A stretch of DNA of 61,850 nucleotides from assembly GCA_903879915.1 (NCBI GenBank), contig CAIRNJ010000045.1, forward strand, positions 1-61,850, written 5' to 3'. This DNA comes from an uncultured Elusimicrobia bacterium. Lineage in GTDB: Bacteria; Elusimicrobiota; Elusimicrobia; Elusimicrobiales; UBA9959. Shown piece after piece: positions 10,674-40,808 of this stretch. The stretch's first letter is position 1. Each line of letters starts with the position of its first letter. Both the position numbers and the translations under genes were made by a program. The notes beneath the pieces were generated by a model. That model ran no database searches, was not told the DNA's origin, and saw nothing but the letters and a program-made list of their open reading frames with translations.

Positions 10674-11792
10674 GTGTCCATAGCTATTCAGAAGGGCGGC
10701 ATACTCATCCACCGCGTGTTCGACGTGGGCGGAGAGATCTCCCTGACGCGGGCCGAACAGCTGATCAGCGAGACCGGCAAAGGCCCCCGCCTTAAGTTCT
10801 CCACCAATACCCGCAAAGCCATCATCATAAAGGACGCGCCCCTTAAAACCGAGCTCGGGGTGGAGACCCTCGATCTGCCCTCGGGCGCCTTCCCGGTCAG
10901 GATATTCGCGCGCCTGTGGAACTACGGCGTTATCTCCATCACGCTGGAACTGGATATCCCGCCGGACACCCCGTGGGACAGCCTGGTAAAGCTGGCCGCC
11001 GAACTGGAGGCCTCCGAGGAGGTGGACCTGGTGGCCCTGGGCCGCAAGGACGCGCTGAAGCGGCAGATACTGCCGGCCATAGCCGATCCCGCCGACTGGG
11101 ACATTTTCGAGGACTACATCACCTATATAGTGGAGAAGGCCGACGGCCTGGGGAACCCGCGCGAATTCATAAAGAAGGTGGACGTGGCGGCGCTGATACT
11201 GGCCGAGGACAAGGAAATACTGGGCGAGGAATCCCGGGATTTCATACTGGAAAGCGCCATACAGTATTCCAGCACCGACCTGGCGATAATAGACTGGAAC
11301 TCGGCCCTGCTGATAGAGCCCGAGGGGCAGCGGGACGTGGCCGACGCGATAGAGTTCTCGCTCACGCATCTGCTGGAATTCCGCTATTACGACGAGATGC
11401 TGGGCCGGAAGCTCGACGAGCTTTACGACGCCATGGACCAGAAGCGGGAAAGCGTGGCCAATATTTTCCGGAACTTCTACGCCGACATCGCCGAGGATTC
11501 CAGCCGCAAGTACATGGAATTCTCGGAGTTCCTCGGGCGGGTGGAGAACTCGCTCAAGACCGTCGGCGACCCCTACCTGGCCGTGGTCTTCAGGGCTTCC
11601 GCGCTGGAGTTCCACTTCGACGACTGGCGCAAGAGCATCTCGCGCAAGATGGAGACCCTGGCGCAGATAAGCCAGATCCTGCACGGCGAGGTGAACACCC
11701 GCCGCAGCCACTGGCTGGAAATAATAATTATCGTGCTGATCGCGGTGGAAATGGTGCCGATGATGCTGGACTTATGGAAGTTCCTGCACTGA
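10674..11792 (+). CDS. RMD1/YagE-type (DUF155) membrane-anchored protein
   Basis: A 372-aa protein that starts at GTG (10674) after AAAGGAA. The order of segments (ARLWNYGVISITLEL, a long helical middle with EFRYYDEMLGRKLDELYDAM, and a C-terminal hydrophobic helix preceded by RRSHWLE) matches the RMD1/YagE (DUF155) family as I know it. Members are tail-anchored and poorly characterised; in fungi they are linked to meiotic division and mitochondrial gene expression. It lies 24 bp after the second redoxin, probably in the same transcript. Its last 21 bases overlap the end of the convergent M23 peptidase gene. The family call is by recognition of segments only. Confidence 0.6.
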   Translation: MSIAIQKGGILIHRVFDVGGEISLTRAEQLISETGKGPRLKFSTNTRKAIIIKDAPLKTELGVETLDLPSGAFPVRIFARLWNYGVISITLELDIPPDTPWDSLVKLAAELEASEEVDLVALGRKDALKRQILPAIADPADWDIFEDYITYIVEKADGLGNPREFIKKVDVAALILAEDKEILGEESRDFILESAIQYSSTDLAIIDWNSALLIEPEGQRDVADAIEFSLTHLLEFRYYDEMLGRKLDELYDAMDQKRESVANIFRNFYADIAEDSSRKYMEFSEFLGRVENSLKTVGDPYLAVVFRASALEFHFDDWRKSISRKMETLAQISQILHGEVNTRRSHWLEIIIIVLIAVEMVPMMLDLWKFLH

Positions 11793-28718: not shown

Positions 28719-28738
28719 AAGTTCTTTCGTTCATCAAG

Positions 28739-28769
28739 CCGCCGGAAAACTTTCCGGCGGTTCTGTTTT
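28739..28769 (+). terminator. Intrinsic terminator of the ftsK-to-28718 operon
   Basis: A 9-bp stem CCGCCGGAA / TTCCGGCGG (28739-28747 and 28752-28760) has a 4-base loop. It is followed by TTCTGTTTT. It lies 20 bp after the stop codon. Confidence 0.85.
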
Positions 28770-28776
28770 CCGTCGG

Positions 28777-28910
28777 AGGGGTGGCCGGGGGCCGGGCTGG
28801 CAAAACGCGGGGTCGGGCACACCGTGCCCGCCCCTCATCACTCGGCTGCCGCGCTTACGTAAGCGGCAGCCTCCGCGAAGGTTTTGCCAGCCCGGTCCCC
28901 TGCCGCCCCA
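28777..28910. repeat. Structured palindromic repeat, copy A
   Basis: A long palindrome between convergent genes. The outer arms 28783-28806 and 28881-28904 are complementary over 24 nt with two mismatches. Inside are a small hairpin (GGGCAC-ACC-GTGCCC, 28815-28829) and a second stem (GGCTGCCGC, 28844-28852, with GCGGCAGCC, 28863-28871). A 42-nt block (28800-28841) and a 20-nt block (28868-28887) recur, inverted, in the copy at 40652-40808. The differences between copies fall at paired positions on both sides of the stems. It has no coding potential that looks real. Confidence 0.8.
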
Positions 28911-28941
28911 CTGGGAATCTCGCGGTTCTTTTCAGGCGCAA

Positions 28942-40651: not shown

Positions 40652-40808
40652 GGCGGCGGGTGGACCGGTTAGCAAAACCTTCGCGGAGGCTTCGGCTTGC
40701 GTAGCGCCGAAGCCGGGTGGAGTTCGCGAAGCGAACGACACAACTCGTGATGAGGGGCGCGCACGGTGTGCGCGACCCCGCGTTTTGCTAACCGGTCCAC
40801 CCGACGCC
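40652..40808. repeat. Structured palindromic repeat, copy B (inverted relative to copy A)
   Basis: Arms 40652-40678 and 40782-40808 are complementary over 27 nt with one mismatch. Read on the minus strand, 40747-40788 matches 28800-28841 of copy A at 40 of 42 positions, and 40672-40691 matches 28868-28887 exactly. The two differences are a C/G pair swap within the small hairpin (GCGCAC-ACC-GTGCGC here). The central region has a different stem (GCTTCGGCTTGCG against CGCCGAAGC) and a GTTCGCGAAGCGAAC segment. It lies between convergent genes, like copy A. Confidence 0.8.

Follow-up and report, generated by a model that had tools for sequence, protein, structure and literature searches.

What keeps the two arms of a palindromic DNA repeat complementary when their sequence changes from one copy to the next? 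The question is raised by two related sequences in the window, a stretch of 61,850 nucleotides from an uncultured Elusimicrobia bacterium: copy A (28777-28910, + strand) and copy B (40652-40808, on the opposite strand). Both are members of a DNA repeat family of Elusimicrobia bacteria that is old, multi-copy and unnamed. A sequence-only reading of the window had attributed the pattern either to selection acting on a folded RNA or DNA hairpin or to copying of one arm onto the other. The analysis described here favours copying over selection for an RNA, on account of concerted arm changes and core inversion.

Two copies in the window

Copy A and copy B share a 42-nt block (GCAAAACGCGGGGTCGGGCACACCGTGCCCGCCCCTCATCAC in copy A) with exactly two base differences and an identical 20-nt block, AGCCTCCGCGAAGGTTTTGC, and both blocks noted in the earlier reading are borne out by the sequence. 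The outer arms differ between the copies (GGCTGG/CCAGCC in A, GGTTAG/CTAACC in B) yet are complementary inside each, and the inner hairpin swaps a pair (GGGCAC/GTGCCC in A, GCGCAC/GTGCGC in B), both as that reading had described. A repeat search returned arms of 29 nt (90% complementary) within copy A and 27 nt (96%) within copy B, together with A-B shared blocks of 63 nt (84%) and 52 nt (81%); when mismatches are allowed, the arms extend to 28/33 pairs in copy A and 26/27 pairs in copy B. Each copy folds as an extended hairpin that has a three-way junction inside and is far more stable than shuffled sequences, with a folding energy of -106.9 kcal/mol and a z of -9.7 for copy A. The parts of both copies are collected in Table 1, including a conserved tail in the right flank of copy A that the first reading had missed.

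Table 1. Parts of copies A and B in the window
Copy	Feature	Positions	Strand	Remarks
A	Inner-side motif	28775..28786	+	GGAGGGG(T)GGCC, spacer-facing in doublets
A	Outer stem P1, left arm	28777..28806	+	
A	Hairpin P3	28809..28834	+	GGGGTC GGGCAC ACC GTGCCC GCCCC; one bulged T; conserved triloop ACC
A	Hairpin P2b	28844..28871	+	conserved tip GCTTACGYAAGC
A	Outer stem P1, right arm	28881..28909	+	
A	Conserved tail	28910..28928	-	GAACCGCGAGATTCCCAGT on - strand; wrong side of core
B	Outer arm	40652..40678	-	3' arm on core's strand
B	Hairpin P2b	40688..40714	-	
B	Optional extra hairpin insert	40715..40746	-	GAGTTGTGTCGTTCGCTTCGCGAACTCCACCC, 32 nt
B	Hairpin P3	40754..40779	-	
B	Outer arm	40782..40808	-	5' arm on core's strand

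Both copies are situated between convergent genes. Copy A is flanked by a 317-aa gene that has no Pfam match and a gene for a TPR protein, copy B by a 126-aa gene and one for an MFS transporter. By eye, an ordinary terminator-like hairpin at 28738-28760 precedes copy A, and the element itself was rejected as an intrinsic terminator, as it has no T run.

Copy number and distribution

BLAST with copies A and B located, by sequence search only, about 30 copies in the own genome. Many of them stop at contig ends, as expected of a repeat that breaks assemblies. In G000, the contigs C13, C22, C24, C33, C39, C42, C73, C97, C103, C104 and C112 end inside the element, several of them with matching ends that could be joined through their overlap. 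A covariance model built from 36 copies found 9-99 copies per genome in all 32 genomes of the genus, with matches down to an E value of 1e-22; these matches and the roughly 30 genome copies place the two-copy pattern beyond chance. The proposal of a repeat family with pairing-preserving changes is thereby upheld, since the covariance model yields further copies as well as significant covariation. Neither a lack of further copies nor a loss of pairing between the arms, which had been named as outcomes speaking against the proposal, was encountered.

In a class-wide sample, many copies are present in three other genera of the same family, one genus has one copy in each genome, and weaker copies, 1-4 each, appear in a small number of genomes from the class's other families. 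No copies were detected in five genera of the same family, or in any listed genome of the sister family, and elsewhere in the phylum the element is rare or absent. Records with the exact core pattern are Elusimicrobia MAGs, along with unnamed 'bacterium' bins and one short 'Verrucomicrobia' contig. The latter (L387, MIDO01000085.1, 5459 bases) carries the element in a MAG labelled Verrucomicrobia GWC2_42_7 and is probably a misbinned Elusimicrobia contig. A phage or plasmid origin was set aside, as the viral contigs, phages and plasmids searched gave no match. Rfam 15 contained nothing above the gathering score, with chance-level matches only, mostly to microRNA families, and the literature search found no paper describing the family. 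With no GTAG or CGTC tag either (see below), the earlier view that this is not a named REP, BIME or MITE family stands. The repeats are non-autonomous, dispersed, palindromic and BIME/REPIN-like, and are confined mainly to one family of Elusimicrobia. With them, a phylum of which few members have been cultured gains a large repeat family without a name, and many contig breaks in its assemblies are explained.

Architecture and covariation

The unit of ~130-150 nt forms a three-way junction composed of a long outer stem P1, hairpin P3, and stem P2 with hairpin P2b. The order of the full unit, visible in other species, is the polar tail GACCGCGAGATGCGAAGTCGGGG, the three-way-junction hairpin, and CCCCTCC. 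The triloop hairpin CAC-ACC-GTG with its bulged T (P3), the P2b tip GCTTACGCAAGC and the junction strands are conserved. Sequence varies, with pairing kept, in P1 (modelled with 20 pairs but usually longer), in P2, and in the stems of both P3 and P2b. The arms, 25-30 bp in length, differ from copy to copy and enclose a core of ~75 nt; the inner arms fall into two sequence classes common to several species. A pair counter found 85.8% of cells paired, against 71% in shuffled and at most 54% in slid controls. Double-change cells numbered 247 against 82 in shuffles, a highly significant covariation, and double changes are present in 35 of the 48 pairs.

Of the 64 copies with a tail, 61 have it on the same side of the core, copy A being among the rare exceptions. 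All 25 close pairs of copies are inverted (+,-) doublets with gaps of 33-210 nt and variable spacer sequence, and we infer that single copies are often remnants of doublets. A 22-bp palindrome, AAAAGGGGACAGGCTACTTTTT, carries one copy (L013, 1467-1662, G000:C51; L271) in its loop, and near relatives of this palindrome stand alone in L121 and L126.

Placement among genes

Gaps between tandem genes hold 127 of the 184 placed copies, gaps between convergent genes 39 and gaps between divergent genes 9, with the remaining 9 running into the end of an ORF call; gene calls came from a simple hexamer caller made for this analysis, so that single placements may be wrong. Background intergenic gaps are 150:28:43 for tandem, convergent and divergent genes, and divergent gaps are accordingly depleted of copies (9/175 vs 43/221, p 2e-5). 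The median distance to the upstream stop codon is 50 nt. A role at gene 3' ends in mRNA protection or DNA topology is possible by analogy with what has been proposed for REP sequences.

Orthologous sites

Nearly all comparable copies of the own genome have a counterpart at the same site in G002, where the flanks are ~95% identical, and several sites are also shared with species of only 70-85% identity. At 13 sites with complete copies in both genomes, the left arm was aligned with the reverse-complemented right arm. Over 347 arm columns, 20 concerted double changes were observed against 1.6 expected if the arms mutated independently; 39 other columns carry a single-sided change and 7 the same mismatch kept in both genomes. 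At the clearest site (L026/L003 vs L152), four changes are concerted and none is single-sided. Every concerted change falls in the outer arm, nine pairs or more from the junction, and the inner arm mismatches (TATC vs TAGC) are retained in both species. The concerted changes comprise 9 transitions and 11 transversions (51:41 in the flanks), with no transition bias, and the arm mismatches of the two close genomes are 17 G.T and 16 A.C, with no strand bias, so that neither a G.U route nor a single RNA strand stands out between these genomes. The arms change at 13% per side, which is not above the 12% of the immediate flanks, a figure inflated by two poor alignments; slow compensatory selection may therefore contribute.

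The core is inverted relative to its flanks at 3 of the 13 sites, one flip being assigned to G002 with G021 as outgroup; all genomes are metagenome assemblies, in which palindromes may be wrongly assembled, at these inversions as well. Flips other than that of copy A rest on one assembly each, and at L163 another apparent flip extends across an N gap. Copy A has an inverted core, given that its tail is on the wrong side, and the core has the same orientation in G002, i.e. in two independent assemblies. Since the orthologous site in G013 holds a doublet (L225), copy A looks like a leftover right-hand doublet unit with an inverted core.

G002 lacks both copy B and the 126-aa gene beside it; another palindrome, GGGGTCAGGTCTTGCATTTCAAC, occupies that site (C203 ~10944-11007; L119/L149). 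In the own genome, this second palindrome also lies 1.5 kb away from a RAYT gene (L085). Besides copy B, only three copies of its genome (L027, L029, L032) contain the extra hairpin, GTTCGCTTCGCGAAC inside GAGTTGTG...CCACCC, which is absent in G002 at all three of these four sites that could be aligned. At a further locus (L002/L009, G000:C91:48464-49998), two inverted copies 1.3 kb apart enclose two genes, where G002 has a single copy (L161, C12); the segment between was thus lost or gained.

Proposed template switching and alternative explanations

On balance, we favour a BIME/REPIN-like family whose arms are kept matching mainly by template switching during replication, the core inversions being events of the same kind. 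The nascent strand of a long palindrome would switch template and copy one arm onto the other, as in quasipalindrome correction. If the strand folded back, primed on the inner arm and copied the outer arm, concerted changes would be limited to the outer arm and inner mismatches would persist; an event of the same type that started in the first arm would leave the core inverted. The element may have spread earlier by transposition, and its present inheritance would be mostly vertical.

Homogenised arms and inverted spacers have both been reported as results of template switching between inverted repeats (PMC8604942). In RNA genes, template switching has been reported to produce multi-base compensatory changes and loop inversions and proposed to maintain RNA hairpins (PMC8794818). 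The combination of homogenised arms and inverted spacers is this published signature, and for that reason arm copying is preferred to selection for an RNA. Concerted arm changes are accompanied here by spacer inversion at the three orthologous pairs and in copy A relative to its tail. The family resembles the reported hairpins (PMC8794818; PMC8604942) in linked multiple double changes, arm homogenisation and inversion of the spacer or loop. It differs in that the reported cases lie in rRNA genes and yeast coding genes, whereas the present family is dispersed and has ~75-nt cores. The strong conservation of the loops is not explained by template switching and points to a protein or RNA partner. 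If template switching is the right explanation, RNA-like covariation arises largely from DNA replication and imitates the usual proof of functional RNA; with hundreds of copies, many at mapped orthologous sites, the process would be measurable in wild bacteria.

A structured non-coding or 3'-UTR RNA, with pairing selected on one strand and copies dispersed by an earlier mobile phase, would account for the strong covariation, the conserved loops and the proximity of copies to an upstream stop codon. The transcribed strand would then probably be the one with CCUCACGGAGG...GGCCACGGUGUGGCC. The best evidence for an RNA is that A.C mismatches outnumber G.T ones on the core+ strand (310 vs 60 in 203 copies), A.C there corresponding to G.U on the opposite strand; the imbalance is found mostly in five columns, and looks inherited as subfamily features. 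The double changes between the two close genomes, however, lack a transition or strand bias, and the core flips, so that no constant strand would be transcribed. Copies between tandem genes are found in either orientation (79:48), the commoner one being opposite to the strand favoured by the wobble count. As there is no Rfam family either, we regard an RNA origin of the pairing as unlikely.

Pairing would also be selected if the element were a single-stranded DNA substrate for recombination or transposition, similar to REPINs or attC sites, because the enzyme must recognise the folded strand; each round of transposition may itself rebuild the two arms from a single one. Conserved tips and bulges in variable stems, the polar tail, the inverted doublets and pairing without strand bias would all suit such a substrate. 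The copies of two close species, on the other hand, are almost all at shared sites, hence recent transposition cannot drive the arm changes. RAYT was rejected as mobiliser: no match to the model occurs in 99 kb around 31 Y1_Tnp loci, and five genomes of the genus have 29-60 copies without Y1_Tnp. The absence of attC boxes from 212 copies (see below) also speaks against this explanation, which we consider quite improbable.

Gene conversion between paralogous copies, swapping whole stems or elements, could explain why inner hairpin types such as GGCTGCC/GGCAGCC and GGGCTCGG/CCGAGCCC replace one another at orthologous sites and recur in paralogs. Each site, by contrast, has outer arms of its own, which remain homologous to those of its counterpart in the sister species, yet change in concert; this makes conversion very improbable. 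That the core is a small element inserting into the tips of pre-existing palindromes, which become its arms, can hardly be sustained: the copy in the loop of AAAAGGGGACAGGCTACTTTTT, a palindrome that exists alone elsewhere, is the single such case, no empty palindrome was seen at any orthologous site, and the occurrence of inner arms in two cross-species classes indicates that they belong to the element.

Relation to known repeat systems

REPINs and BIMEs are REP doublets (Bertels and Rainey 2011, PMC3116915). Like them, the present family is intergenic, has tens of copies, forms inverted doublets (all 25 close pairs) with a variable spacer and a polar end, and persists long in genomes; compensatory changes in the hairpin are also reported for REPINs. 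In contrast, the unit here is a three-way junction rather than a hairpin of 20-40 nt, with copy-specific arms, core inversions, no RAYT association and no GTAG tag (GTAG at arm ends in 44/212 copies, vs 44/212 in shuffled flanks). The repeats form a new, unnamed BIME/REPIN-like family with unusual long, probably self-templating arms, which works like REPIN doublets combined with quasipalindrome correction.

CGTC-tagged REPs, with stems of 8-9 bp, loops of 4-5 nt and a CGTC end, are likewise palindromic repeats apparently without a dedicated transposase (PMC3733652, Di Nocera et al. 2013). The arms described here are longer, at 25-30 bp, and lack a CGTC end, the motif being below the shuffled level at the arm ends of 212 copies. 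Bacterial MITEs such as ERIC, RUP, RPE and Correia/NEMIS have a largely fixed sequence and short terminal repeats (review PMC2229807). The element is similar to MITEs in its size of 100-200 nt, intergenic location, non-autonomous nature and long stem-loops, and unlike them its arms vary freely but in concert. Palindromic arms are present; no clean empty site between G000 and G002 and no linked transposase was found.

No neighbouring gene recurs across non-orthologous sites as a candidate mobiliser, and the 6-14 kb around dense copies hold housekeeping genes. Membership of the REP/RAYT, CGTC-REP and attC families was tested and rejected for each.

attC sites conserve structure over variable stems and contain bulged bases, and the element shares both properties. 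The boxes RYYYAAC...GTTRRRY were found at the stem ends of 0/212 copies on either strand, which rules out attC identity, and the only cassette-like arrays seen are ORF6N tandems in a few genomes. We also considered a new structure-recognised DNA recombination system, in which a candidate enzyme would invert cores and join cassettes with an ORF6N-domain protein as candidate partner; the element-ORF6N gene tandem units of several genomes would be the cassettes. We consider such a system very improbable.

The element is situated upstream of ORF6N-domain genes (PF10543), in the same orientation, in L202 (G182:C66), L192, L292, L477 and L487. The distance between element and gene is ~150-250 nt, and over 1 kb in L477. 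In G182, four element-ORF6N units of ~850 bp stand in tandem.
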